DNA from: a virus
Direction: 5' to 3' (one strand)
Virus record (IMG/VR): IMGVR_UViG_3300049216_000418
Span: 1 to 22,559 of that record
Length of the DNA: 22,559 nt
This document shows positions 3,671-22,448 of this stretch, one piece after another. Under the pieces are notes generated by a model. It was not told the origin of the DNA, made no database searches, and was given only the letters and a program-made list of their open reading frames with translations. The position numbers were made by a program, and so were the translations under genes. Within the stretch, counting starts at the first letter, position 1, and each line of letters begins with the position of its first letter.

Positions 3671-4063
3671 TTACCTCTTTTGATTGTTTAACTGTGTACT
3701 GATCTTGCCAAGCCCGCGCCTCCACTTGCGCCAAGCAGTGACGTGGTTGCGCTCACCCAGCTCCTGACAAATTATTTTCCATGGCGTCTTGGCCGCTCGC
3801 ATCCAGATTAGTTTTCGCTCCAGAACTGTCACCCACTGCATCCAAGTAAGCGTTTCTTCAAGACGAGAAATTGCATCTGGTGTGGCCAATATTTTAGTGG
3901 GGCGAGTCTCCATGAGCATTAGTTCCTGAGGTGTGTGTACAATGCCAGGCCAGGAATTAAAGTAGCCCTGTACTCTCACTGATGGCAGCTTACGTAATGT
4001 TAGAATGGATTCATAAAAACTATCTTCAACAAACTCTGGTGTACGGTCGGTGTGATTATGCAT
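3671..4063 (-). CDS. DUF6362-like phage protein
   Basis: About 130 residues from the ATG at 4063, which overlaps the end of the resolvase gene by 8 bases. The frame is open further upstream to 4192, but that part lies inside the resolvase gene and has no family character. The protein has the features I associate with DUF6362: FVEDSFYESILTLRKLPSVR and VQGYFNSWPGI near the start, then WVTVLERKLIWMRAAKTPWK and a helix-turn-helix-like HVTAWRKWRRGLGKI near the end. In alphaproteobacterial phages this type sits between replication and packaging genes. The C-terminal part suggests DNA binding; a regulatory or packaging-related role is inference only. Confidence 0.75.
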   Translation of the reverse strand: MHNHTDRTPEFVEDSFYESILTLRKLPSVRVQGYFNSWPGIVHTPQELMLMETRPTKILATPDAISRLEETLTWMQWVTVLERKLIWMRAAKTPWKIICQELGERNHVTAWRKWRRGLGKISTQLNNQKR

Positions 4064-4580
4064 GATGTGGTATGGATTGGTTGAGTTGGATGGGTTGATT
4101 AAGTTGCGGCTTGCGTGACTGTTGCTTGTGTAAAGCGAGATGCAGCAACGCCAGTGCATCTGCTTCGTTGTCGTCACATGGATCGTGGCCAAGAGCTTTC
4201 ACGCTTGCTATCACATCATCTTTGCTTGCATTGCCTTTGCCGGAAATGAAGAGCTTGATTGTGCCAACTGGTACGCCAATGTAAGGAATTCTGTAGCGCT
4301 CGCACAGTGCCGTTAGCTGGCTCAAGAATCCACCGTATGCATGAGCAGCATACGTGCCTTTATGACTATGCACCTGCTCGAAATACACAGCATCTATCTT
4401 GCGTGCACATCTCAAATATGCCTCCAGCCAACGCGCAAAATGCCAGTAGCGTTTGCCTATGCCGTCCTGTTTGTGGCAATCAAAATGTGCAGTACCGCTT
4501 GTGATGTGGCCGTCTTTGTGTAAAGCCCAGCCGGTGCGGGTGCCAAGATCCAAGCTGAGTATCGTCTGTAAGTTATTCAT
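4056..4580 (-). CDS. RuvC-like Holliday junction resolvase (phage type)
   Basis: 174 residues. The RNase H-like fold is marked by SLDLGTRTGWAL at the N-terminus (Asp11), YFEQVHSHKGT (Glu68) and DPCDDNEADALALLHLAL (Asp137 and Asp141), giving the expected acidic catalytic set. VGTIKLFISGKGNASKDDVI is typical of the RuvC family, in which Lys residues help bind the junction. Such enzymes cut four-way junctions or branched replication intermediates with divalent metal; in phages this clears DNA before packaging. The ATG at 4580 has GAGGAC about 6 bases upstream. The last 20 residues (QLNQPIQLNQSIPHHA) are low complexity. It is in one unit with the DUF6362-like genes, and its stop overlaps the next start. 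Confidence 0.85.
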   Translation of the reverse strand: MNNLQTILSLDLGTRTGWALHKDGHITSGTAHFDCHKQDGIGKRYWHFARWLEAYLRCARKIDAVYFEQVHSHKGTYAAHAYGGFLSQLTALCERYRIPYIGVPVGTIKLFISGKGNASKDDVIASVKALGHDPCDDNEADALALLHLALHKQQSRKPQLNQPIQLNQSIPHHA

Positions 4581-5181: not shown

Positions 5182-5406
5182 TTAAAGTAATGCCCATTGT
5201 TTCCTCTTTAGAAGAAAGATCGTCGGGTTTATAGGTAGCCAATGAACTGAGCTATTGCAGTATTTCCTTGTGAGGTTTTGTATTCCTGCAATCGCCCGAC
5301 GGGTTAGTATCTGCAGCAATAACTTGCCACCAGAATTTGAACGGTGGGCGATCGAATTAAGACCACCCACCACAGCCGTTAGTGTTTTTCGACAAAACAT
5401 CTTCAT
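5182..5406 (-). CDS. Small ORF, unknown (doubtful)
   Basis: 74 codons; its ATG overlaps the stop of the ATPase gene (ATGA), and it ends 12 bases before the next start. The product (MKMFCRKTLTAVVGGLNSIA at the start, KRKQWALL at the end) is basic and resembles no family I know. Another minus-strand frame over the same bases reads FDRPPFKFWWQVIAADTN between stop codons and looks at least as protein-like, so the interval could be a degraded gene. I list the ATGA-coupled frame with low confidence. Confidence 0.3.
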   Translation of the reverse strand: MKMFCRKTLTAVVGGLNSIAHRSNSGGKLLLQILTRRAIAGIQNLTRKYCNSSVHWLPINPTIFLLKRKQWALL

Positions 5407-6242
5407 GCTGCTTTACGACCTTTTGTTGATACGAGATTGTGACCTGTGTCTGTCTCACCAACTTCACCCCACTTGTCCTCAACCAGCTCGATATTTTTGG
5501 TCGCAATCGGCTTGCCGTTACGTAACTCAAATATCAACTGATAGTTCTCTGAGTCGAGCTCAGGCTGATGCATGATGACACAACTGGAGTAGTGATCGCG
5601 CAATATATGCTGATTGTGTAAACCTTGCACTGCGTCATTCTCCATCTCTTCTTGCGTCAGATGATCTGATTGATGAACCAGAATGACGCCAGTATTAGGG
5701 TTTGTGCCACGAAGCTCGTTCACACCAGTCTCTAGGAAAGTTTGCAGAGCACTGTCAAAGCTGACACCTTCACCAAATTTCAACACGTTATACAGCGGAT
5801 CAATAGCAATGATGTCCACTGGATGCGAGCCAAAACGACTGTGGATAGACTTGAGTGCAGCTTCTATGCCTTTTGAATCAAACTCTGCTGATGTTACAAA
5901 AACAGCCAGATTCTCACGCACTTGCGGCAAATCAAGCTTTACTCTTTCCATCCTTTCCCGCACATAATGATCGTTGTTGTCTAAGTCTGCTTGGAAATAA
6001 ACCACCTTGAGTGGACGAGGAGCCGTCATTCCAAGAAACGATTTGCCAGCTGCCATGTGCATGAGCCAAGAGAGCATCAGATAACTTTTGTACATCTTGG
6101 GACTGCCACTGAATACAAGCAGCCCACCTGGTGTTAGTACACGTGGTGCAATGATGTCTTCTGGCCTCACGTCATTGAGTGCATCTGCCATGTTATAAAG
6201 TGGTTGGATTGGTAGTGTCTTAACGTTTGTTGTTTTAGTCAT
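5403..6242 (-). CDS. RepA-like / AAA_25 P-loop ATPase
   Basis: 279 residues. It belongs to the RecA-fold group of replicative helicase-like ATPases (RepA of RSF1010, Pfam AAA_25). LTPGGLLVFSGSPKMYKSYL holds the Walker A at about 46-53, in which the usual Gly before Lys-Ser is Tyr; I believe a YKS variant exists in this family, so activity is not excluded. Walker B is PVDIIAIDPLYN at about 141-152, followed by VILVHQSDHL, the sensor-like histidine strand. The C-terminus has the FELRNGKPIA module. It is a paralog of the ATPase half of the primase-helicase and lacks primase domains. It probably acts on DNA during phage replication, perhaps as helicase or loader. AGGTAA sits before the ATG, overlapping the stop of the upstream ORF. 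Confidence 0.8.
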   Translation of the reverse strand: MTKTTNVKTLPIQPLYNMADALNDVRPEDIIAPRVLTPGGLLVFSGSPKMYKSYLMLSWLMHMAAGKSFLGMTAPRPLKVVYFQADLDNNDHYVRERMERVKLDLPQVRENLAVFVTSAEFDSKGIEAALKSIHSRFGSHPVDIIAIDPLYNVLKFGEGVSFDSALQTFLETGVNELRGTNPNTGVILVHQSDHLTQEEMENDAVQGLHNQHILRDHYSSCVIMHQPELDSENYQLIFELRNGKPIATKNIELVEDKWGEVGETDTGHNLVSTKGRKAA

Positions 6243-6246
6243 AAGG

Positions 6247-6933
6247 TTACCTAATTAAATGCCCTATAACCTCTCCTGGTTGATACAAAACCGTCAGGCA
6301 ATGGAGAGTGCCTAAGAGCTTGCAATGCTGTTGCAACTGCCTGACGTTATTCCGATTTGCGTCTAGGGCAAACCTTGGGAATTTCTTGATAGATGCGGCT
6401 CTGGTAGGCTGTATTGCCTGCAAAAAAGCTACAGCTTGAATTGTTGTGCTTTGCTGCCTTGAGAAGATTTGTTTTGCAGCTGGTAATGATAGACCGCCTA
6501 TCCTACGGTGATTTAGTTCTGAGTGAGACGGTGAGTCTTGAGAAGTCCAGCTGCAGAAAAATTTCTTTTGATTCTTGAGTTGATATTTTTTTTCTAACAT
6601 TCCCCCAAACACCAGAAATATCTTTTGTAAACATTGAGTGAGAACACCAAGTGTCTCTCTCATATGTTTACATATGGGGGTTGAGTTGGGGACTAGGGTA
6701 TATGCCTGAGACCTTGATAATAAAGGGATTGATGGCTGTCCCTCAAATTTTTTTCTCAATTGAGCGTGAGGGACTAGTCCAACCCTTGATAATAAAGGCA
6801 CCGAAGTCAGTCCCTCATTTTTTCTCCCAATTTGAGGATGAGGGACTTGGAATTTGCAACAAACCCCGTGAATATTAGGTTTGTAGTTCCCCCTCGTCGT
6901 GAGGGACTCATTTGCGGTGAGGGACTCAATCAT
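6247..6933 (-). CDS. ORF of unknown function overlapping an origin-like repeat cluster
   Basis: 228 codons. The ATG overlaps the primase-helicase stop (ATGA), and the stop overlaps the Shine-Dalgarno of the next gene, which favours a real gene. However, the first 75 codons lie in DNA that is repetitive in its own right (72-bp repeats, 6712-6855), giving a duplicated peptide (VPLLSRVGLVPHAQLRKKFE, then IPLLSR). A Phe/Lys-rich stretch follows (QKIFLVFGG, KNQKKFFCSW). The C-terminal 80 residues look more like protein: SLPAAKQIFSRQQSTTIQAV and RNNVRQLQQHCKLLGTLHCL. The true gene may start at an internal Met at about 6600, leaving the repeats outside it. I recognise no domain. Confidence 0.4.
   Translation of the reverse strand: MIESLTANESLTTRGNYKPNIHGVCCKFQVPHPQIGRKNEGLTSVPLLSRVGLVPHAQLRKKFEGQPSIPLLSRSQAYTLVPNSTPICKHMRETLGVLTQCLQKIFLVFGGMLEKKYQLKNQKKFFCSWTSQDSPSHSELNHRRIGGLSLPAAKQIFSRQQSTTIQAVAFLQAIQPTRAASIKKFPRFALDANRNNVRQLQQHCKLLGTLHCLTVLYQPGEVIGHLIR
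6712..6928. repeat. Cluster of 72-bp direct repeats and TGAGGGAC dyads (candidate replication origin)
   Basis: Two 72-bp units begin at 6712 and 6784 with CCTTGATAATAAAGG. Each contains a dyad whose arms are GTCCCTCA and TGAGGGAC: 6738-6745 with 6767-6774, and 6810-6817 with 6839-6846. Between the first pair lies the palindrome CTCAATTGAG (6755-6764). Two further TGAGGGACTCA copies follow at 6900-6910 and 6918-6928, 18 bp apart. That makes six copies of the eight-base core, four in one orientation and two in the other. The cluster sits immediately downstream of the primase-helicase stop. Repeated binding sites with hairpin potential beside a replication gene are typical of phage and plasmid origins; this is an inference from arrangement. 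Confidence 0.55.
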
Positions 6934-9107
6934 AGCTTTTCTTCATTAAAATATTGCCAGGTTTTTTTATCTTCCAACGGTAAAATTTTGCCGCTTTTTC
7001 TGCACTTAAAATGGGTCGGTTCTACGTCGTGAGTATGCGATATTGTGTTCCCTGTTTCCTTGTTGAGAGTCGTGACAATGTATTTCATGTTCTCAACACA
7101 TAGGTAGCCGTGTCCACCATGGGTAGGATCTGCAAGATCGTAGTTAGAGCAGCCATCATTGAGAAACCTGACATATCCGTCAGTAGCAAGCACGTTAAGC
7201 TTTCTGCGCACTGTTTCTGGGCTTCCAAGACCAGAGCTACAGTTGCTAAATGCCTCACAAAACTGATTCATTGTGTAGATGTTGCCCTTACTTGCTTCGA
7301 AACGAATTAATTCCAAAATGACGTCTTTTTTTCGTCTGTTCTCAGCATCTATCTTGCAGCCGTGTTCTTGATTGATTAGCCTCTGTGAAGCATGCTCAAC
7401 TTCACGCCAGCTGCCGTTTATTTTGCGCACGTACTTGGGCGCAATAGGTTCGTCCCCATCTCGCAATTCAAATACTAGCTTGCGATCTGGTAGCGTTGGA
7501 TCAGGTCTGTACATCAAAATGCCTGTTGAAAAATATCCATGTAAGGCACTCGCTCCAGACAAAGCTTGAAACCCATTTTCTTCTAGCTGTTCTAAGTCAA
7601 CCTTTTTAGTGTGATGCACAAGTATGTTAGCTGCTTCTGAATTTACCGAATCTCTGAGCACATCTATCCTCTCTTGCAAGAATGTTTTCATTGCACTGTT
7701 GTCGTTTTCCGTCCTATCATGTTTGCCTCCGTCAAATACATAACGCATAGGATCAATTGCTATGACATCTACAGCATCATCAAAATGGTAAAGAATCGTA
7801 CGGCGCATCAGCTCTATGCCATTTTTATCCAAAGTGATTTTCATGTGTGGAGTGAAGAAGAGGTTTTGTCTAGCCAGAGACACAAGCTCAGATCCTACAT
7901 TCATGCTCTGTATTGTGCGCTGTATGCGTTTGCAAATAGCGTGATATCTGACCTCCACCTGTATGTACGCAATCTTAAGTGGCCTGGATGTTTTCATGCC
8001 AAGAAATTCAAGACCCATAGACATGTGCGCAAGCCAAGCAAGCAAAAAGTCGCTCTTGCCTGTCTTGGGTGCACCACCTATAACACACAGTCCGCCTGGT
8101 GTTAATATGCTTGACTTAACCAAATCATCTGGGCCAGGATCTGTTTTATCTAATGCGTGCCCAGTACCGTACATAGTAACAATACTAGGCAACGCAAATG
8201 TTTTATTCTGTAACAGTGCGGCAATATTTTCTGATTCAGCAACGGCGTCTGCAGCATCCCATTTTTTAGGCTTATCTTTTGGTATCTGCAAAATTGAGAC
8301 AGAGTGCATGCGCTCTTTTTTGAGCTTGTCCGCTACTAACTGTGCATACTTCTTGCCTGCTTCATCATTATCCGGCCATATCAGCAGTTCTTTTTTATAC
8401 AAAGGTAACCAGTCTGTTTTATCTATAGGCGCGTTAGCACCATTCATAGCAGTTGTGGCGCATATGCCAGCGTCAATTAGGGCCTGAGCCGCTTTCTCCC
8501 CTTCTACTAGCACTACAGTTTGAGATGCTTTGATGCCTGGCAAATTGTATAGAGGTCTTGGCTCAGGTGGGTGCTTTTGGCCGGTTTTCACATCATAGGG
8601 GAAGAATTCTTTGCCACAGTCAGTGTCGTACCTGCTAACAATTGTTATAGGGTTGCCTTCAACGTCTGTGTACGTCCACTTCCCTGCAAGCACACGCTTA
8701 GATGACTGTGCTTTGCTTGATATAGATGTCGGCATTGATTGCGTTGATGATGCAGGTGACACTGCTGATGGACGATCTGGTACACCTAGCCATTCACACA
8801 TAGATGAAAATACCGCCTTGAAATCCCGCTTCACGTCTAACCCTTTTGCAGCAGCCCAGAGACTAAAGATGTCGCCTCCTTTTTTTTCTGCAAGGTCATG
8901 CCACATGCCAGTCTTGGGCCCTGTGAGCTGCACAACTAAGCTTCTGCCTGCATCTCCACGGACATTGCCTACATGAAACTCTTTTTTGTCGACTGTGCCC
9001 TTGGGTAATATGTGCTTCAGCCCCAAAGACAACTTACTGTGCATAAGCTGTCTTACATGCTCCTTGTACTCTCTGTTTCGTGTATGAAAGTTTTGCCTGT
9101 CAGTCAT
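6930..9107 (-). CDS. Primase-helicase: Toprim domain plus RepA-like ATPase
   Basis: 725 residues. Residues 1-110 form a primase-type N-terminus (GMWHDLAEKKGGDIFSLW at about 68-84) without the Cys/His zinc ligands of CHC2 primases. A Toprim domain follows: LVEGEKAAQAL at 200-210 (Glu203) and WPDNDEAGKKYA at 244-255 (Asp246, Asp248). Next is a RecA-fold ATPase with Walker A GGAPKTGKSD at 344-353, Walker B DVIAIDP at 447-453 and ILVHHTKK near 498. The C-terminus holds the FELRDGDEPIAPKY module and a winged-helix-like segment (GSPETVRRKLNVLATDGYVR). The protein should both lay primers and unwind DNA at the phage fork. The start is firm: TAGGAGG lies 8 bases before the ATG and overlaps the stop of the SSB-like gene. 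The origin-like repeat cluster lies just beyond its 3' end. Confidence 0.88.
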   Translation of the reverse strand: MTDRQNFHTRNREYKEHVRQLMHSKLSLGLKHILPKGTVDKKEFHVGNVRGDAGRSLVVQLTGPKTGMWHDLAEKKGGDIFSLWAAAKGLDVKRDFKAVFSSMCEWLGVPDRPSAVSPASSTQSMPTSISSKAQSSKRVLAGKWTYTDVEGNPITIVSRYDTDCGKEFFPYDVKTGQKHPPEPRPLYNLPGIKASQTVVLVEGEKAAQALIDAGICATTAMNGANAPIDKTDWLPLYKKELLIWPDNDEAGKKYAQLVADKLKKERMHSVSILQIPKDKPKKWDAADAVAESENIAALLQNKTFALPSIVTMYGTGHALDKTDPGPDDLVKSSILTPGGLCVIGGAPKTGKSDFLLAWLAHMSMGLEFLGMKTSRPLKIAYIQVEVRYHAICKRIQRTIQSMNVGSELVSLARQNLFFTPHMKITLDKNGIELMRRTILYHFDDAVDVIAIDPMRYVFDGGKHDRTENDNSAMKTFLQERIDVLRDSVNSEAANILVHHTKKVDLEQLEENGFQALSGASALHGYFSTGILMYRPDPTLPDRKLVFELRDGDEPIAPKYVRKINGSWREVEHASQRLINQEHGCKIDAENRRKKDVILELIRFEASKGNIYTMNQFCEAFSNCSSGLGSPETVRRKLNVLATDGYVRFLNDGCSNYDLADPTHGGHGYLCVENMKYIVTTLNKETGNTISHTHDVEPTHFKCRKSGKILPLEDKKTWQYFNEEKL

Positions 9108-14135: not shown

Positions 14136-14699
14136 ATGAATATTTTAGACTGCACACACACCCAAACTGACCACCACCTGCTCAACGGCAAAGCGCGCAT
14201 AGACAGCACTGCTGCAGAGATCAATAAGATAAATACGCCAAAAACATCCGTTGTCTTACGCGAGCTTCTGTTTGCACACAAACTCAGGCCATACGATCTG
14301 TCTAAGGCTTTGAATATTCCAAATCAAACAATACACCAGCTGCTGAATAAACCGGTGCTCTTTCCCAGAATCTCTACGCTTCTGCCAATCGCGAAGTTTT
14401 TCAAAATTACAATCAGTCAGTTGATAGGAGAGGAGCACTTGGATGCCAAGAAACAAACTGAAGATGAAGAGCTTGAGGCACTGTACGCGCCTGGTGTTTG
14501 GAACCACGAGTTGTTTGCGGAGTGCACCCAATGCGTAGTTAAGTTGCTTGAAAAGTACAACATGTCGCCCAACGATAAGCTTGCCACCAAGCTGGTATGT
14601 GACACCTACGCCTTTTCATTGCGTCGCACCCAATCAGCCTTAGATGAGGTATTTGCTGATTGGCAGGTTTCCCAGTATGCAAGTACTATTAGAAAATGA
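14136..14699 (+). CDS. XRE-family (Cro/CI-like) phage repressor
   Basis: 187 residues; AGGTAA precedes the ATG. A helix-turn-helix of the XRE type spans about 38-98: SVVLRELLFAHKLRPYDLSK, ALNIPNQTIHQLLNKPVLFP and STLLPIAKFFKITISQLIGE. The order of helices and the closing ISQLIGEE match Cro/CI-type domains. The remaining 85 residues are helical, and I see no S24 peptidase Ser/Lys pair, so induction would not be through LexA-style self-cleavage. The first 25 residues (HTQTDHHLLNGKARID) resemble the start of the next gene's product. The gene has the 49-bp element upstream, shared with the replication operon, and its stop overlaps the next ATG. It is the likely lysogeny regulator. Confidence 0.75.
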   Translation: MNILDCTHTQTDHHLLNGKARIDSTAAEINKINTPKTSVVLRELLFAHKLRPYDLSKALNIPNQTIHQLLNKPVLFPRISTLLPIAKFFKITISQLIGEEHLDAKKQTEDEELEALYAPGVWNHELFAECTQCVVKLLEKYNMSPNDKLATKLVCDTYAFSLRRTQSALDEVFADWQVSQYASTIRK

Positions 14700-14980
14700 G
14701 CATAGACATAGACGGCCCACACTCGTACACAGACCCCCGCCTACTCACAGGTCAGGCCAGAATCGAAGAGATTGGACGACTACTTGCATTGGGCATTTTG
14801 CGCCTGTACAAACGCCAACAAGCCGCATGTGCAACCCCCAACGAGCCGAGAGACAGCATGGGCTCGCGGCCACAGTGTCTCCGAATTGGCGCAGTCGGAA
14901 AAATAAATGCACTAAATGCCAAAAAATACAAAAAATGCACTAGACAAGGGGCCGTTTCGGAGCGAACATCCGACCATTAA
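14696..14980 (+). CDS. Small phage protein of the repressor operon, unknown
   Basis: 94 residues, ATGA overlap with the repressor gene. The conserved-looking part is N-terminal: SYTDPRLLTGQARIEEIGRL followed by LALGILRLYKRQQ. I associate short proteins with this LALGILRL-type helix with the recombinase region of alphaproteobacterial prophages. The rest is basic and of low complexity (INALNAKKYKKCTRQ). The first 27 residues share H-x-x-TD-x-x-LL-x-G-x-ARI with the repressor N-terminus, so the two may bind a common partner. Function unknown. Confidence 0.6.
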   Translation: MSIDIDGPHSYTDPRLLTGQARIEEIGRLLALGILRLYKRQQAACATPNEPRDSMGSRPQCLRIGAVGKINALNAKKYKKCTRQGAVSERTSDH

Positions 14981-14996
14981 TTAATAAGGTAGATGT

Positions 14997-15719
14997 ATGA
15001 CACACAACATGAAACTTACAAACGCTAGCACAACACTAGAAAACGCACCAGAGCACATGCTTGCACTATGGGAAAGACGCATACCAAGCAGGCAAAAACC
15101 AATCATCCTAACCGCACAAAGAAGTATAACCCTGAAAGTGCTGTTTAAACATGTGTTTCTCTCGAAACTAACAGGGTGGGAATCTTTTATAGACTTGATT
15201 CACCACTGCAACGGCTATCTGTCAGGCAAGCATTCTTGTTTGTCTGACGGGGAGTTCTTTGACTGGGCCATTACCCCTAACAACTGCTTGGATGTAATGA
15301 ATGGCGTTTATCTAGAAGAGAAAACGAAACTTATCAAAGCAAAAAACATGATAACGCTCCCTGAGCTGTCAGATAAACTCTCTGCTGCAATGGCAGAGGA
15401 GGCAGGCAAGTTATCTGCATCTGCACCCAGCAAAACGACACAAAACGAGCTACAGAAGGCACTAACCACAGCAAAACAATGGTGGGAGCGACTTTTCAGC
15501 AACGGTGTCGCGCAATACGTCCCTGAAGAGCATCGCCCACCTTTAGTTGAGCTGTGCAACCTCTTGCGCCTGAACTTTCTAGCACCAAGCATACAGCAAG
15601 CCATAATAGACGGTACGCAGCCTGCCACTATGACACTGGAGCTGATACAAAAGCGATTTCCAAAGTCATTCGATGAGCAGCTGGTACACTTTGGCTTTTC
15701 GCAGCACTTAAATCACTGA
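14997..15719 (+). CDS. Paralog family member 1, fused to a recombinase-type C-terminal module
   Basis: 240 residues; AAGGT lies upstream of the ATG. Residues 22-107 carry the module shared by four genes here: LALWERRIPSRQ, then GWESFIDLIHHCNGYLSG, then FFDWAITPNNCLDVMNGVYL. Residues about 150-235 are of a different origin: KALTTAKQWWERLFSNG and LLRLNFLAPSIQQAIIDGTQ to FDEQLVHFGF correspond to the C-terminal tail of the serine recombinase at 19116-19841 (KALAKAWHWQKLLEDG, SPRIKRAILDGTQP, KQSKHFGF). The first module is reminiscent of tails of phage and plasmid replication proteins (W-F-I-S-FL-G then a Trp and G-x-Y). The fusion suggests an accessory factor touching the integration machinery; that is inference. 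Confidence 0.7.
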   Translation: MTHNMKLTNASTTLENAPEHMLALWERRIPSRQKPIILTAQRSITLKVLFKHVFLSKLTGWESFIDLIHHCNGYLSGKHSCLSDGEFFDWAITPNNCLDVMNGVYLEEKTKLIKAKNMITLPELSDKLSAAMAEEAGKLSASAPSKTTQNELQKALTTAKQWWERLFSNGVAQYVPEEHRPPLVELCNLLRLNFLAPSIQQAIIDGTQPATMTLELIQKRFPKSFDEQLVHFGFSQHLNH

Positions 15720-15726
15720 GGTGAAT

Positions 15727-16239
15727 ATGACTGACAAAGCAAAAAGAAAACAAGACAACGTCGCTGCACTAGAGGCAATAAAAGAAAGAAACATCAACGA
15801 AACTGTACAACGGTTGTTACCTATCTGGGAGAAACGTATTCCAGCTCTGCCGTCTGAAAAGCTATACCCACTAACAAGAAGAGAGAAGGTTCAGCTGCAG
15901 CATGTGTTTAGAATTGTATTTCGTGCCAACATAGACCTTTGGTCAAAGTTTGTTGATATGATAGCCGAAAGCGATTTCTTGATGGGTAGATATAAACACT
16001 CTGATCTCCCTAGCCGCTTTGGTCGCGTGAAGCTAAGCTGGGTTCTCATGCCGGAAAACTGCTTGCTGGTAAAAGCTGGCGCGTACTCAAATGACAACTT
16101 CGATGAGAGTTCTGTTTTAGGTTGTGGTTATTATGGTGGCTATCTAACTCCAAGTGATCTTGCAATCTCCATGAAGGATGAGCTTGATGAGTACGGTGAG
16201 GATGGTGGGTCTGTATCTCTCTTCAGAATAAAGAGGTAG
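15727..16239 (+). CDS. Paralog family member 2
   Basis: 170 residues. I start at the ATG at 15727, which has GAGGTG 5 bases upstream, rather than at the GTG at 15721, which overlaps that ribosome site. After a charged helical leader it shows the shared module at about 30-120: LLPIWEKRIPALPSE, LWSKFVDMIAESDFLMGRYK, and LSWVLMPENCLLVKAGAY. Of the four copies it has the clearest SDFLMGR and PENCLLV signatures. The C-terminus (GCGYYGGYLTPSDLAISMKD, then an acidic run) is unique. It lies 7 bases after the previous gene. Function unknown. Confidence 0.65.
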   Translation: MTDKAKRKQDNVAALEAIKERNINETVQRLLPIWEKRIPALPSEKLYPLTRREKVQLQHVFRIVFRANIDLWSKFVDMIAESDFLMGRYKHSDLPSRFGRVKLSWVLMPENCLLVKAGAYSNDNFDESSVLGCGYYGGYLTPSDLAISMKDELDEYGEDGGSVSLFRIKR

Positions 16240-16242
16240 GCC

Positions 16243-16614
16243 ATGAACAACAACATAACCAATATACCCAGCAGCATGTTACAAGTATGGGCGTTTGCAA
16301 TGTCTATGGATCGCAGTTTGAGTTTGAGCCAAAAAAGAAAAGACGCGCTGAATTTTCTATTTACCAACGCGTTTAATTCAAGCCTACAACAGTGGGAACA
16401 CTTTGTTGATCTTCTAGGTGACAGCGAGTTTTTACAGACAAGGTTTTCTAAGCGCGGCCAGCTTTTTGATTGGGCCATCACACATAGAAATTGCTTGCGA
16501 ATTCTGAATTGCGTTGGTACAGCAGAATATATAACGCATGACCTTGCTCAGAGATTGGTGGCTGAAGCTGCAAAAGAAAAGAAGAGCGAATCGCAATCAG
16601 TGAGTCTTGTATGA
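16243..16614 (+). CDS. Paralog family member 3
   Basis: 123 residues; AGAGGTAG before the ATG overlaps the previous stop. Shared module at about 12-92: MLQVWAFAMSMDRSL, QWEHFVDLLGDSEFLQTRFS, and LFDWAITHRNCLRILNCVGT. The RIP motif of the other copies is replaced by AFAM. It ends with a short charged tail (EAAKEKKSESQ). The stop overlaps the ATG of the next ORF. Confidence 0.65.
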   Translation: MNNNITNIPSSMLQVWAFAMSMDRSLSLSQKRKDALNFLFTNAFNSSLQQWEHFVDLLGDSEFLQTRFSKRGQLFDWAITHRNCLRILNCVGTAEYITHDLAQRLVAEAAKEKKSESQSVSLV

Positions 16615-16871
16615 AACACAAAGCGATATACACAGCAGCCGGAATGAGTTCTAGCCAAAACACAAAAACTCACGCTGAAAGTACGCTTTGCGAAAGCGTT
16701 TTGCCACTGACAAATGTTTGGCATGAATTGCCGTTGAACCGAGACCACTGCTCGGATGAGCGGCATTTTGAGCTTGCAAAAAATTCGTACTTGTGGTACG
16801 GTTGTTTAAAGGTGTTGAAATTCATGGCTGGAAATAAAAAAGCCCGAAGTTTTTACACCTCAGGCTTTTAG
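16611..16871 (+). CDS. Small ORF ending inside a terminator, unknown
   Basis: 86 codons, with an ATGA overlap to the preceding gene. No family recognised. The middle part (VWHELPLNRDHCSDERHFEL) is protein-like, but the last 12 codons (NKKARSFYTSGF) are read from the terminator hairpin at 16838-16869. That can happen in a real last gene of an operon, or show that the frame is open only by chance or by fusion to the terminator. There is no resemblance to the four-paralog family. Confidence 0.4.
   Translation: MKHKAIYTAAGMSSSQNTKTHAESTLCESVLPLTNVWHELPLNRDHCSDERHFELAKNSYLWYGCLKVLKFMAGNKKARSFYTSGF
16838..16869 (+). terminator. Rho-independent terminator closing the repressor operon
   Basis: Arms AAAAGCC (16838-16844) and GGCTTTT (16863-16869) form a 7-bp stem that can extend through G-C and A-T pairs toward a TTTTAC loop. 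The A-run and T-run flanking it make it likely to work in both directions. It separates the repressor operon (14136-16871) from the recombinase operon starting at 17020. Confidence 0.65.
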
Positions 16872-17019
16872 AAGCATCGACTAAGATACTTACTTTGGCA
16901 AGATTTATCTTAGTTGAAACCTTCTAAAAAGTCAAACGGTTCTTGATGGGGCAAAGCGCAAATCAGTATAGCGCAGCTCTATCCAGAATCATGTTGTTTA
17001 ACTTTAGAATGATAAAACT

Positions 17020-17379
17020 ATGAATGATTACAAAATAAAACATAATTCAAACATTCCAAATCTAATGCTGGAAATATGGGAAAGCCGAATACCCACAAAT
17101 TCTCCATTAGCTCCAACTCCAAAGAGAAAAGCCGCCCTGGAATTGCTCTTTACCCACGTATTTAGCTCTAGCTTATCACGCTGGGAAGCATTTGTTGATT
17201 CCATAGCCATTAGCGAAGTGCTGATACTCAAAGCCGTTAAGGCTTGTGACTCTGGCAAGTCCGGTGAATTTCTGAACTGGGCTATCAAGCCTGAGACATG
17301 CTCGACTATTTTAGCGGGTGTCTACGAAGAGGTAGGTGACGAACTAGCAGATTCTGCTGGCACGGAAGAAACGTCATGA
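17020..17379 (+). CDS. Paralog family member 4, first gene of the recombinase operon
   Basis: 119 residues. Shared module at about 15-103: LMLEIWESRIPTNSPL, RWEAFVDSIAISEVLILKAV, and FLNWAIKPETCSTILAGVYE. The tail is acidic. The ATG has no visible Shine-Dalgarno. An 11-codon frame (MLFNFRMIKL, 16991-17023) ends with a TGA overlapping this ATG, so it may be translated by coupling from a leader peptide. The stop overlaps the DUF2924-like gene (ATGA). Unlike the other three copies it lies beyond the terminator at 16838-16869, so it would be co-expressed with the recombinase. Confidence 0.65.
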   Translation: MNDYKIKHNSNIPNLMLEIWESRIPTNSPLAPTPKRKAALELLFTHVFSSSLSRWEAFVDSIAISEVLILKAVKACDSGKSGEFLNWAIKPETCSTILAGVYEEVGDELADSAGTEETS

Positions 17380-17888
17380 CAGCTCAACTCCCCACTCCCA
17401 TGACCACTAACGTGACAGCTCCCATGCCCACTCCCGCAACAACACCAAATGATGCAGTGCTACAGCGGCTAGTAGCACTACGCAATATGGACATGGCTGG
17501 CCTACATACCACATGGCGGGATCTGTACAAGTGTGATCCACCTAAAAGCTCCAACGCCCCTTATCTGATAAAGCGTCTGAGCTACCGTATTCAGGAGCTG
17601 GTGTATGGTGGCGACACTGCAGAGACCAAAGCGCGACTTGAAGAGCACGCCAAACGCTACTTTGGTGGCAGCAAACACAAGCTTCACCCTGCCCTATCAG
17701 CTGGCACAATACTCACGAGAGAATACCAAGGCGTGGAGCACCAGGTTGCAGTGTTGGACGAAGGCACATTTCAGTACAACGGCTGCAAGTATAGAAGCTT
17801 GTCAGCGATAGCAAAATACATCACCGGCACGAACTGGAATGGGCGGGTATTTTTCGGTGTCATACAAAGAGCAGCTAAAGCATCATGA
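17376..17888 (+). CDS. DUF2924-like protein, recombinase partner
   Basis: 170 residues. The order of motifs fits DUF2924: RLVALRNMDMAGLHTTWRDL, YLIKRLSYRIQELVYGGDT, then a beta-rich C-terminal half with LSAGTILTREYQGVEHQVAV, FQYNGCKYRSLSAIAKYITG and TNWNGRVFFGV. The C-terminal part is the basic, DNA-binding-like segment with the Asn-Gly-x-x-Phe-F ending. In alphaproteobacterial elements DUF2924 genes are usually directly upstream of a large serine recombinase, as here (ATGA overlap with 17885). A role as accessory or directionality factor is plausible but not shown by sequence. The first 30 residues are Pro/Thr-rich and probably flexible. Confidence 0.8.
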   Translation: MTAQLPTPMTTNVTAPMPTPATTPNDAVLQRLVALRNMDMAGLHTTWRDLYKCDPPKSSNAPYLIKRLSYRIQELVYGGDTAETKARLEEHAKRYFGGSKHKLHPALSAGTILTREYQGVEHQVAVLDEGTFQYNGCKYRSLSAIAKYITGTNWNGRVFFGVIQRAAKAS

Positions 17889-19150
17889 ATAAATCAGTCA
17901 CAACACATACTGCTAAGCCAAGCATCCCAACCACCGTCACTCCCAAAGTACGCTGTGGCATCTACGGACGCACATCCACAGAAGAAGGCCTGCAATCTGA
18001 ATTCAATTCGCTAGATGCTCAAGAGCTATGTTGCACCAAGTACATAGAAATTCAAAGACATGAGCACTGGTCTCTAGCGGGCATATACATAGACGCTGGC
18101 TTTTCTGGCGGCAACACTGACAGACCGAACCTAACGCGGCTCATTGCAGACGTTAAGGCTGGGCTACTTGATGTAGTGTTAGTCTACAAGATAGATCGTC
18201 TATCCCGCTCTCTGATAGACTTTCTGAATCTGCTGAAATTATTCGAACAGTACAACGTGGCTTTTGTATCAGTCACACAGCAGTTCAATACGACAACTCC
18301 CCTTGGCAAGCTTACCCTCAACATCATGGCGAGCTTTGGCGAGTACGAGCGGGAGATCATACGAGAGCGTACGCGTGACAAGTATACCGCATCCAGGCAA
18401 AAAGGTATGTGGATGGGCGGGCGTGCACCGCTTGGCTATGATGTGTTAGACAAGAAGCTGGTCGTCAATGAGCGTGAAGTTGCAACTGTACGGCTTATAT
18501 TTGCTGAGTTCATCAAGACAAAATCCGTTAAGCAATTGGTGATTTGGCTCAGAGAACAGGGCATCAAGAACAAAAACGCTATAGTTGGTACTGAGAGTAC
18601 TCGTGGTAGTGGTGACAGCTGCTATACACCTGCATCTATTCGTACTATTCTCAATAACGCTTTGTATATTGGCAAGGTGTCTCATAAAAGTACAATGTAC
18701 GATGGCCAGCAGCAAGCCATAATCTCAGACGAAGTCTGGCAAGCAAGCCGGCGTGTTATGCAGGTGGCACCCAGAGAAAGAGCCGGTATCACAAAGCGCA
18801 AAGTACCGTCTGTGCTAGCAGGTCTGCTCAAATGCGGCGGCTGCAACAGTGGAATGACACCAGCTTATACGAAAAAGAGAAATGGCAAGCTTTACCGATA
18901 TTACGTGGCAGATGCTCATATCAAAGCTAAGTGCGTCAACTGCCCGATAGGGCATCTGTCAGCACCGGAGATCGAAGGTGCCGTGTTGCAGCAATTACAG
19001 CAGATAGTACGGACGCCAGAGCTGGTAGTGCAAGCGTGGCAGAACGTGAAGGCGTCGCAGCAGGTTAATGCTTGTCAGACCAAACGCGGTGTCCCGATTC
19101 AAATGAGAAAACATAATGCAAATGAACATGAGAACCCAGCCCATATCTGA
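17885..19150 (+). CDS. Large serine recombinase (integrase), N-terminal and central part
   Basis: 421 residues. The resolvase catalytic domain covers about 22-175: GIYGRTSTEEGLQSEFNSLD holds the nucleophile Ser31; GFSGGNTDRPNLTRL, VYKIDRLSRSL (Arg105, Arg108) and FNTTTPLGKLTLNIMASFGE complete it. The recombinase domain follows (KGMWMGGRAPLGYDV onward, to about 290). The zinc ribbon has Cys317, Cys320, Cys350 and Cys353 (LKCGGC and KCVNCP). These enzymes integrate or excise circular DNA through a covalent serine intermediate. In the family, a coiled coil and C-terminal tail normally continue in the same polypeptide; here the frame stops after a non-homologous tail (QMRKHNANEHENPAHI), and the expected continuation lies in the overlapping ORF 19116-19841. 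Confidence 0.88.
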   Translation: MNKSVTTHTAKPSIPTTVTPKVRCGIYGRTSTEEGLQSEFNSLDAQELCCTKYIEIQRHEHWSLAGIYIDAGFSGGNTDRPNLTRLIADVKAGLLDVVLVYKIDRLSRSLIDFLNLLKLFEQYNVAFVSVTQQFNTTTPLGKLTLNIMASFGEYEREIIRERTRDKYTASRQKGMWMGGRAPLGYDVLDKKLVVNEREVATVRLIFAEFIKTKSVKQLVIWLREQGIKNKNAIVGTESTRGSGDSCYTPASIRTILNNALYIGKVSHKSTMYDGQQQAIISDEVWQASRRVMQVAPRERAGITKRKVPSVLAGLLKCGGCNSGMTPAYTKKRNGKLYRYYVADAHIKAKCVNCPIGHLSAPEIEGAVLQQLQQIVRTPELVVQAWQNVKASQQVNACQTKRGVPIQMRKHNANEHENPAHI

Positions 19151-19841
19151 AGAGCAAATAAGGCATACGCTAAGCTGTATAGATTCTGTATGGCAAGAGC
19201 TGTTTCCGGTAGAGCAAGAGCGGCTATTGAAGACAGTCATAGATGAAGTAATCGTGCAGACGGATCATCTTGAGCTGAGACTCAAAATTGATGGCATGCT
19301 GCATGCGACCGGTGGAGCTGGTGGAAATGGAGTGGCTTGTGCTGGTGGTAGGGCTGGAGCTGGCGGGAATGAGGTAGATGGTACAGGGTTGCGTGATCAA
19401 AAAGACGCAAATCAAACCACAAATACCGTCGCGTCTATAAAAATACCGTTTAGCTTCAAACATAATGGCCAACGTAAGCTGATTAGCGTGAAGAATGGAG
19501 CAGAGAATTCGGAAGAGAGCGTGCGTGCGAACGTGCGAGATAGCCTGCGCCAACCTAATTGCGACAAGGCGTTGCTGAAGGCTCTCGCAAAAGCGTGGCA
19601 CTGGCAAAAGTTGCTTGAGGATGGGAAGTTCAGCAGTGCCAATGCACTCGCCAAGAAGTATCGGCTCAACTGCTCTGATGTGTGCCGGATTATGAAGATG
19701 AACCAGCTTTCACCAAGAATTAAGCGGGCGATACTCGACGGAACTCAGCCAAGGACCATGAGCATGGAGGCGTTTAAGAAGCCTTGGCCTGATGATTGGG
19801 GAAAACAGAGTAAGCATTTTGGCTTTGAGCAGCAGCAGTAA
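19116..19841 (+). CDS. Serine recombinase C-terminal part in a separate frame
   Basis: 241 residues. It overlaps the preceding ORF by 35 bases in the +1 frame. The N-terminus (ISEEQIRHTLSCIDSVWQEL and FPVEQERLLKTVIDEVIVQT) is what usually follows the zinc ribbon in this recombinase type. A Gly/Ala-rich insert (about 64-91) follows, then VASIKIPFSFKHNGQRKLIS, and a C-terminal module: KALLKALAKAWHWQKLLEDG, SANALAKKYRLNCSDVCRIM and LSPRIKRAILDGTQP to KHFGF. Either the recombinase is split into two polypeptides translated by coupling from the ATG at 19116, or a programmed or accidental frameshift between 19107 and 19150 joins them. The same C-terminal module is fused to paralog 1 at 14997-15719. 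Confidence 0.75.
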   Translation: MQMNMRTQPISEEQIRHTLSCIDSVWQELFPVEQERLLKTVIDEVIVQTDHLELRLKIDGMLHATGGAGGNGVACAGGRAGAGGNEVDGTGLRDQKDANQTTNTVASIKIPFSFKHNGQRKLISVKNGAENSEESVRANVRDSLRQPNCDKALLKALAKAWHWQKLLEDGKFSSANALAKKYRLNCSDVCRIMKMNQLSPRIKRAILDGTQPRTMSMEAFKKPWPDDWGKQSKHFGFEQQQ

Positions 19842-20263: not shown

Positions 20264-21832
20264 ATGACATTTCCTGCAGTATTTAATGTAGGTACATCGC
20301 TTAACGGTACCAACGGGTTTCAACTAACTAGTACAACATACTATTTTGGATATTCTATAGCATCGATAGGCGATTTCAATGGGGACGGGGAAGCGGATAT
20401 AGTGATTGGCACAGAATATTCTATAGTATATGTAGTCTATGGTAGTAACAACATATTTGTAACCCCTTTTGACGTAGATTCATTGCTCAACGGTACCAAC
20501 GGCTTTAAACTCACTAGCACAAGTAATTATTTTGGACTTTCTGTAGCATCAGCTGGAGACTTTAACTGTGATGGAAAGGCTGACATAGTAATAGGTACGT
20601 CAGACTGGGCTAACAGCGCATACGTAGTCTATGGTAGTAACAACATATTTGTAACTCCTTTTGATGTAGATTCATTGCTTGACGGTACCAACGGCTTTAA
20701 ACTCATTAGCACAAGTAATTATTTTGGCCAGTCTGTAGCATCAGCAGGTGACTTCAATGGTGATGGAAAAAATGATATAGTGATCGGCACAGAGTATTCC
20801 ACTGCATATATAGTCTATAGTAGTAAAAATATGTTTGTTAATCCTTTCGATGTAGATTTATTGCTTAACGGCACTAATGGATTCAAACTCACTAGCACAA
20901 CCGGTTATTTTGGGATGGTGGTAGCATCAGCCGGAGATTTCAATGGAGACGGAAAGGCTGATGTCGTGATCGGCACCGCTTATTCTGTGGACACAGCATA
21001 TATAATCTATGGTAGTAACAGGGCGTTCGCTAGCCCTTGTGATGTAGACTCATTACTCAACGGCACTAACGGCTTTAAACTCACGAGCACAAGCTCCCAA
21101 TTTGGGTTCTCTGTAGCATCGGCTGGCGATATCAATGATGACGGAAAAGCTGACGTCATCATTGGAACATACGATGGTGCCGCTTATGTCATCTATGGTA
21201 ATAACAGTGAGTTTGCGAATCCATTTAATGTGGACTCATTGCTTAACGGTAACAACGGCTTCATACTCACCAGCGCTACTAGCAGTTTTGGTGACTCTGT
21301 AGCTTCCGCTGGAGATATTAATACTGACGGAATACCAGACATAGCGATAGGTGCATCTGCATCTAATACAGCTTATATTATATATGGCAATAAAAGCGGG
21401 TTTGGGAATCCATTTAATGTGGATTCATTGCTTGACGGAAACAACGGCTTTCAACTCGAGAACTGTGGCACCTATTGCGGCAATTCTGTAGCATCAGCTA
21501 TAGATTTCAATGGTGATGGGGAAACGGATATCCTGATCGGAGCACCAGGTTCTAACGTAGCTTCTGTCATCTATGGTCCCCGTGTTGGGAACACTATTTA
21601 TATTAACTCTTCTGGTGTATTTTTTGGTACGCCAAGAAATGATACCTTCTTTATTAACGCCACTGGAGATGTCACAATTACAGGTGAAGGTGGATATGAT
21701 ACTTATGTTGTATACGAACGCACTAACTTAAACATTACATTTACTGATTTCGACACAGGGCAAGATCAAATAAGGTATATGCCTATCGGAAGCTGCCCAA
21801 GTTTCAATAATACAGAAGTAACATACTATTGA
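20264..21832 (+). CDS. FG-GAP repeat beta-propeller protein (integrin-alpha-like)
   Basis: 522 residues; AGAGAGG precedes the ATG. Seven repeats of 62-64 residues begin at about 14, 76, 140, 202, 266, 328 and 391, each reading N/D-G-x-N-G-F, then YFG-x-SVASAGD, a calcium-loop motif (DFNGDGKAD, with variants DINDDGKAD and DFNGDGETD), VIG, YVVYG and PFDVDSLL. Seven blades is the number in an integrin-alpha propeller, so a closed propeller is likely. All seven loops keep the acidic ligands. The C-terminal 75 residues differ (FGTPRNDTFFINATGDVTIT, GGYDTYVVY, ITFTDFDTGQDQIRY) and recall RTX-type ends, suggesting type I secretion; there is no N-terminal signal peptide. A surface adhesin for host cells is the likely role. 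It may be a host gene or phage cargo. Confidence 0.82.
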   Translation: MTFPAVFNVGTSLNGTNGFQLTSTTYYFGYSIASIGDFNGDGEADIVIGTEYSIVYVVYGSNNIFVTPFDVDSLLNGTNGFKLTSTSNYFGLSVASAGDFNCDGKADIVIGTSDWANSAYVVYGSNNIFVTPFDVDSLLDGTNGFKLISTSNYFGQSVASAGDFNGDGKNDIVIGTEYSTAYIVYSSKNMFVNPFDVDLLLNGTNGFKLTSTTGYFGMVVASAGDFNGDGKADVVIGTAYSVDTAYIIYGSNRAFASPCDVDSLLNGTNGFKLTSTSSQFGFSVASAGDINDDGKADVIIGTYDGAAYVIYGNNSEFANPFNVDSLLNGNNGFILTSATSSFGDSVASAGDINTDGIPDIAIGASASNTAYIIYGNKSGFGNPFNVDSLLDGNNGFQLENCGTYCGNSVASAIDFNGDGETDILIGAPGSNVASVIYGPRVGNTIYINSSGVFFGTPRNDTFFINATGDVTITGEGGYDTYVVYERTNLNITFTDFDTGQDQIRYMPIGSCPSFNNTEVTYY

Positions 21833-21848
21833 CCATGAAGGCAAAATC

Positions 21849-22448
21849 ATGCCACCAACACAAACTGTGATCACTGCTACATGTTATCCAGTTAGCAGCA
21901 TTTTACTACCGCACAATCTGACAATGACTTTTTTGGGAATTTCTAATCCCAATCAGGTGCTAGTTGATTGTCATACAGAAACTATAACTCAAACTAAGAG
22001 CGATACTGAACCACCAACAAATACTATAACACGCTATCCAGTTATTAGCATTTTACTACCGCACAATCTGACAATGACTTTTTTGGGAATTTCTAATCCC
22101 AATCAGGTGTTAGTTGATTGTCATACAGAAACTATAACTCAAACTAAGAGCGATACTGAACCACCAACAAATACTATAACACGCTATCCAGTTAGCAGAA
22201 TCTCACTACCTCATAACCTGACAATGGCTTTTTTGGGGGTCCGTGATACTGATCAGATATCGATTGATTGTAATACGGAAACTGCAACTCACACCGGCAA
22301 CAGTACTATGTCACTAACGCAACAGTTAACCTCAACTATAAACAGCACTAACACACCTTCATATATACGCACACTATCAGTTACCCAACCTCCTCCTTGC
22401 TTCAGTAAGTATCCAGAAACATTAGATACATTCAGCGGCTCCCGCTAG
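21849..22448 (+). CDS. Repeat protein of unknown function next to the FG-GAP gene
   Basis: 199 residues; GAAGG lies 8 bases before the ATG and 17 bases separate it from the FG-GAP gene, so they are probably co-transcribed. Three 50-residue units follow each other: YPVSSILLPHNLTMTFLGIS then NPNQVLVDCHTETITQTKSD, a near-identical second copy, and a diverged third (YPVSRISLPHNLTMAFLGVR, QISIDCNTET). Each has one Cys. Linkers are Thr/Pro/Asn-rich (TEPPTNTITR), and the C-terminus is Ser/Thr/Pro-rich, like extracellular stalks. No signal peptide or transmembrane segment is visible. I recognise no domain; the composition and neighbour suggest a secreted or surface protein. Confidence 0.65.
   Translation: MPPTQTVITATCYPVSSILLPHNLTMTFLGISNPNQVLVDCHTETITQTKSDTEPPTNTITRYPVISILLPHNLTMTFLGISNPNQVLVDCHTETITQTKSDTEPPTNTITRYPVSRISLPHNLTMAFLGVRDTDQISIDCNTETATHTGNSTMSLTQQLTSTINSTNTPSYIRTLSVTQPPPCFSKYPETLDTFSGSR
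21885..22334 (+). repeat. 150-bp in-frame tandem repeat, three units
   Basis: Units begin at 21885, 22035 and 22185, each starting TATCCAGTTA. By my reading the first two differ at only three positions, so one arose by recent duplication; the third is clearly diverged, mainly in its second half. The period is a multiple of three, so unit number can change without breaking the reading frame. Confidence 0.92.

Follow-up and report, generated by a model that had tools for sequence, protein, structure and literature searches.

Four small proteins related to the C-terminal domain of phage replication initiators, encoded beside the repressor and integrase genes of a virus record

Four genes of a temperate phage, known from an IMG/VR virus record and here called A to D, encode what by sequence comparison is a true four-copy family of paralogues, and the module that they share is well supported by profile searches as an un-named C-terminal domain of phage O-like replication initiators. 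In those initiators the domain ends a longer protein that has a DnaB helicase gene next door, whereas in A to D it stands alone, four times, beside a repressor and an integrase. It is the stand-alone amplification and the placement that are unusual, the domain itself being known. We tentatively read the four proteins, with a probability of about 0.4, as helicase-recruitment domains without their DNA-binding half, which would compete with or modulate initiator-dependent replication. Throughout, "the window" means the whole stretch of DNA that was analysed, 22,559 bases in length; its relevant features are collected in Table 1.

Table 1. Positions of the four module proteins and neighbouring features in the window
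Feature	Coordinates	Strand	Remarks
Protein A (240 aa)	14997..15719	+	Module ~15042-15332; C-terminal recombinase-accessory-like domain ~15414-15716; BLASTP matches to B, C, D and ORF 19116-19841
Protein B (170 aa)	15727..16239	+	Module ~15808-16086, then low-confidence tail of ~50 aa
Protein C (123 aa)	16243..16614	+	Module ~16255-16515
Protein D (119 aa)	17020..17379	+	Module ~17050-17346; first gene of recombinase operon
Cro/C1-type HTH repressor	14136..14699	+	Heads the operon holding A-C; Pfam HTH_26, E 2e-7
Hairpin between the two operons	16838..16869	.	Terminator-like on minus strand; consensus match only
DUF2924 protein	17376..17888	+	4-nt overlap with D; Pfam PF11149, E 1e-40
Large serine recombinase (integrase)	17885..19150	+	Pfam Resolvase, Recombinase and zinc ribbon; phrog_95 integrase, E 8e-105
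Recombinase accessory (small-subunit type) protein	19116..19841	+	phrog_14161, E 2e-32; C-terminal domain duplicated in A
Toprim + AAA_25 primase-helicase of the element	6930..9107	-	Opposite strand

Results

The initial annotation had described four ORFs with a common module, and both its coordinates and the homology proved correct. BLASTP aligns all six pairs, with identities of 26-41% over 91-145 residues and E values between 7e-11 and 3e-22. The four share a homologous module of ~90 residues, and against 500 shuffles, none of which scored as high, the pairs reach Z values of 17-32. No fifth copy was found in the window. The length of B is counted from an ATG, a GTG start at 15721 being likewise open. 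Besides the start methionine, 12 alignment columns are invariant (in A numbering L22, W25, L46, F50, F54, W61, F64, D66, L75, G85, W90 and C97), and W25, W61 and W90 are the three invariant tryptophans of the module. The three motif blocks by which the family was originally recognised hold as majority patterns but not as invariants: the S-x-FL block is replaced by FIDLIHHCNGYL in A, the third block of D closes with ETCS rather than NCL, and in C most motif residues are changed, with WAFAM in place of W-x-x-RIP and no G-x-Y. The copy closest to the initiator domains is B. In all four proteins the module starts 4-30 residues from the protein start, and there is no N-terminal DNA-binding domain in the same polypeptide.

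Gene positions and gaps also confirmed the operon layout, with A, B and C accompanying the repressor and D leading the recombinase run. In the first operon the repressor is followed by a 94-aa ORF, A, B, C and an 86-aa ORF, consecutive genes lying -4 to +16 nt apart. After these come 148 nt with the hairpin ahead of them, and then D, which opens a second operon (D, DUF2924, recombinase, accessory protein) with 4-nt overlaps as far as the recombinase. The genes for A to D adjoin a repressor and a recombinase, not a DnaB helicase gene, and neither a module-bearing initiator nor a DnaB was recognised elsewhere in the 22,559-base window. The replication genes, including that of the Toprim-AAA_25 protein, lie on the strand opposite to A-D. 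A second copy of the recombinase-accessory domain, missed in the earlier description, is present in A: the last ~80 residues of A repeat, in diverged form, the end of ORF 19116-19841 (36%, E 9e-18, BLASTP), and A matches phrog_14161 at E 1e-9. The first 35 nt of the accessory ORF (19116-19150) are shared, in another frame, with the end of the recombinase ORF, and in a related element, L046, the recombinase is 40 residues longer and is followed by a short accessory ORF. By eye, the repressor (14136-14240) and the 94-aa ORF (14696-14790) start alike with TDxxLLxGxARI, a possible partial duplication.

A likeness of the module to the C-terminal ends of replication proteins had been suspected from the letters alone and was borne out by profile search. 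The replication initiation family phrog_19658 matches A (E 1e-7), B (E 2e-5) and C (E 2e-4), and B also matches phrog_22470 (E 2e-4) and phrog_10469. The earlier description of the family as undescribed therefore stands in part: the domain is not undescribed in kind, because it is a member of PHROG replication-initiator families, but searches of A-D against Pfam and NCBIfam gave no credible model for the module, and we found no solved structure related to it by sequence. Two weak hits, one of C to the MvcA insertion domain (E 0.007, under Pfam's cut-off) and one to a Tn916 excisionase (E 0.35), were judged to be chance. With B as the query, tblastn reached the ends of Pseudomonas "primosomal protein I"/replication proteins (E down to 8e-4), whereas C and D gave no match against phages even at E 5. 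A DnaB-type helicase lies immediately downstream of this gene in the phage records read, and the N-terminus of the phage module proteins is HTH_36 or DUF1376 where Pfam recognises one. Among viral contigs, a scan gave 80 module loci, in all of which the module forms the end of the ORF (two of these ORFs lose their start to a contig end), and DnaB follows within 700 nt downstream in 88/88 loci when 8 more are added; these 88 include many near-identical phages, and grouping at 85% identity leaves ~20 distinct modules. Pattern scans for close relatives (alignments A2 and A4, and protein A alone) returned none in viral or genome contigs.

Comparison of profiles with profiles links the window copies to two sets of initiators, at E 3e-13 for the phage domains and E 5e-20 for domains from Rickettsiales. 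The sets compared share no sequences, a comparison with B on both sides having been set aside, and leaving B out altogether still gave E 1e-8 (phage) and 1.5e-15 (Rickettsiales). Column-shuffled controls and the DnaB_2 domain gave no signal.

The closest sequences to the window copies are the Rickettsiales initiators, in which the module occupies the middle of the protein, with a winged-helix-like part on one side and, in 5/8 of those scanned, the Pfam domain DnaA_N (DnaA domain-I-like) on the other. A profile built from the window copies alone matches these proteins best (L200 at E 1e-14, many others at 1e-9 to 1e-7), and of 174 genomes from the order to which a Candidatus Jidaibacter record belongs, 34 contain the module. 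It is found there in two contexts, beside DUF6362, which also occurs in the window (3671-4192), and beside F-type tra genes. The latter would fit the Rickettsiales amplified genetic elements, in which DnaA_N genes are present in 10-23 copies in Orientia (PMC10732058). These initiators are multi-domain proteins of 300-640 aa, and where their module is duplicated the copies lie within one protein, unlike the separate A-D; such tandem modules were seen in L247 (3996-5726) and in contigs C288, C295 and C333 of genome G1127. At L250 (4962-6154), directly upstream of F-type tra genes, a winged-helix ORF overlaps an ORF with the module and DnaA_N, which is either a frameshift or a natural split initiator.

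That the stand-alone cluster is unusual, as first proposed, agrees with our searches, since no second case was found in ~1,400 genomes, 106 related recombinase loci or the viral contigs. One candidate for a shorter stand-alone copy, L125, the one short frame among the 80 viral-contig loci, was rejected because it is a frame-split initiator. The stand-alone form is nonetheless not proven unique, because PHROG 24933 (127 aa) may contain short module proteins elsewhere. The suggestion of conserved synteny with DUF2924 and serine recombinases did not survive: with their flanks included, 0/106 related serine recombinase loci carry the module. The nearest relative by primase (48%), L046, has DUF2924, recombinase and accessory genes and no module, and L047, another related element, likewise lacks it.

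In a 72-row tree the four window copies are joined with support of 97/93 on a long stem, B being basal, although the tree has few columns and long branches. The four copies form one supported clade and therefore descend from one ancestor, having multiplied by duplication within the lineage of the element. In 6/6 pairs the third codon position is the most changed and the second the lowest or equal lowest, and synonymous positions are saturated among A-D, which together suggest old duplicates that have been maintained as proteins. The strong divergence of the copies had been taken to imply distinct retained functions; the codon-position pattern fits maintenance as proteins, but does not imply a distinct function for each copy. 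The four-copy multiplicity is also less special than it appears, the 22.6-kb record containing at least three further duplicated gene pairs: 185-724/703-1233 (26%), the DUF6362 genes 3364-3669/3671-4192 (48%), and a stand-alone AAA_25 protein (5403-6242) against the helicase part of the Toprim-AAA_25 protein (34%). Judged from these comparisons, duplication and domain shedding are found throughout the record. Its right end (20264-22448) encodes an FG-GAP/integrin-like repeat protein of 522 aa and contains an ORF with Thr-rich repeats; both are probably cargo or flanking host DNA.

AlphaFold predicts D as a six-helix domain, with pLDDT >90 over residues ~10-100, and gives a similar all-helical model for B with a low-confidence tail. 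Fold searches of the PDB gave no credible match. A BFVD search with D and B returned, among other neighbours, phage initiators, DUF1376 proteins and replisome organizers, with probabilities of 0.8-1.00 but modest E values (0.003-1.3) and TMq (0.4-0.6). For B, chain Z of 9oa1, a DnaB-lambda P complex, heads the VIA rows (Z 4.0, rmsd 4.9, 85 aligned), but a protein of Borrelia that is unrelated ties with it; sequence gives no backing to this hint of a lambda P helicase-loader fold, HMM and hhalign comparisons showing no signal. We also compared the module with the DnaD/DnaB C-terminal domain (Pfam DnaB_2, PF07261), likewise all-helical and found at the end of helicase-loading proteins and of initiators from Gram-positive phages: hhalign gave a probability of <1%, there was no Pfam match, and no DnaD/DnaB_2 chain appeared among the Foldseek/VIA rows. 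The phage O-like initiators (PHROG 345, 5810, 10469, 19658 and 22470; Pseudomonas phages) have the same C-terminal domain by profile, and are predicted-structure neighbours with modest scores.

Discussion

The adjacency to DnaB in phages and the fusion to DnaA_N in Rickettsiales point to helicase recruitment, and we infer that the domain ordinarily brings the replicative helicase, or the loader of that helicase, to the origin. DnaA domain I binds DnaB and helps to load it in E. coli, the one species for which this contact is established (PMC5448010). Freed from the DNA-binding half, A-D would bind the same partner without an origin, and could compete with or tune the initiator-dependent replication of phages and conjugative elements that share the cell or superinfect it, the four diverged copies perhaps matching different initiator or helicase surfaces. 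Such a role would be dominant-negative and of an immunity type, acting from the prophage. A partner-binding half kept, a DNA-binding half lost and co-expression with a repressor together suggest the layout of a dominant-negative modulator, and the placement in repressor and integrase operons, with the replication genes on the other strand, supports a competitor. Against this, no DnaB that the proteins could regulate was recognised in the element itself. The proposed role resembles that of ORF104 of phage 77, a small phage protein that inhibits helicase loading; the likeness is one of function, and the target of ORF104 is the DnaI loader (PMC4887207). Known anti-phage defence families, as represented by PADLOC profiles, gave no match for A-D at E 0.1 or better.

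Taken further, competition at the helicase would make the cluster a previously undescribed prophage immunity strategy, in which amplified, origin-less helicase-recruitment domains from mobile-element initiators are co-expressed with the repressor and keep competitors, whether phages or conjugative elements, from replicating by acting at the initiator-helicase step; one of the proteins would also be linked to the integrase machinery. We regard this fuller claim as rather unlikely as it stands. If it holds, the result would be an exclusion mechanism directed at helicase recruitment.

The main rival, which we hold to be doubtful but worth serious attention, is that D, and A through its accessory domain, are directionality or accessory factors that bind to the serine recombinase and switch its activity from integration to excision or back, with a possible coupling of excision to replication. 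The co-transcription of D with the recombinase, at the head of a DUF2924-recombinase run with 4-nt overlaps, and the fusion in A of a copy of the recombinase accessory domain point to recombination and so against competition for the helicase. By description, A-D also resemble the recombination directionality factors (RDFs) of serine integrases, phage proteins of small size that are encoded close to int or take part in replication: those of Bxb1 (gp47) and phiC31 (gp3) have a second function in phage replication, and the genes of some small RDFs (58-110 aa) are no more than 1-2 ORFs away from int (PMC5311408). However, recombinase synteny is not conserved for the module, which is missing from all 106 related recombinase loci, L046 included, and excision factors would leave the four copies, or B and C, unexplained.

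It is less probable still that A-D are separate-subunit helicase recruiters for the element's own replication, with the module acting in trans alongside a phage DNA-binding protein. The identity of the domain with initiator ends would suit such a role, and initiators can be split, as at L250. However, A-D sit with the repressor and integrase and outside the replication operon, which is on the opposite strand; the element encodes a Toprim/AAA_25 primase-helicase of its own; and the related elements L046 and L047 do without the module. A-D might instead be initiator-gene relics in decay, multiplied because the genome is prone to duplication and now without a role. The three other duplicated pairs would agree with this, as would the loss from C and D of the FLMG/NF residues conserved in relatives, but relics are improbable given four intact ORFs tightly packed in operons, third codon positions that are the most changed, fold-core tryptophans that are kept and a confident fold prediction for D.

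Whether they serve as competitors for the helicase, the reading that we prefer, or in excision, the stand-alone proteins provided by nature can be used directly to search for the partner of the domain, and would reveal whether the end domain of an initiator can be turned into a replication blocker or an excision factor. Initiators of phages and of Rickettsiales share the domain, yet it has no name in Pfam or NCBIfam; in the Rickettsiales mobile-element initiators (L199-L264) it is the Pfam-unnamed domain between the winged helix and DnaA_N, for which a new Pfam entry seems due.
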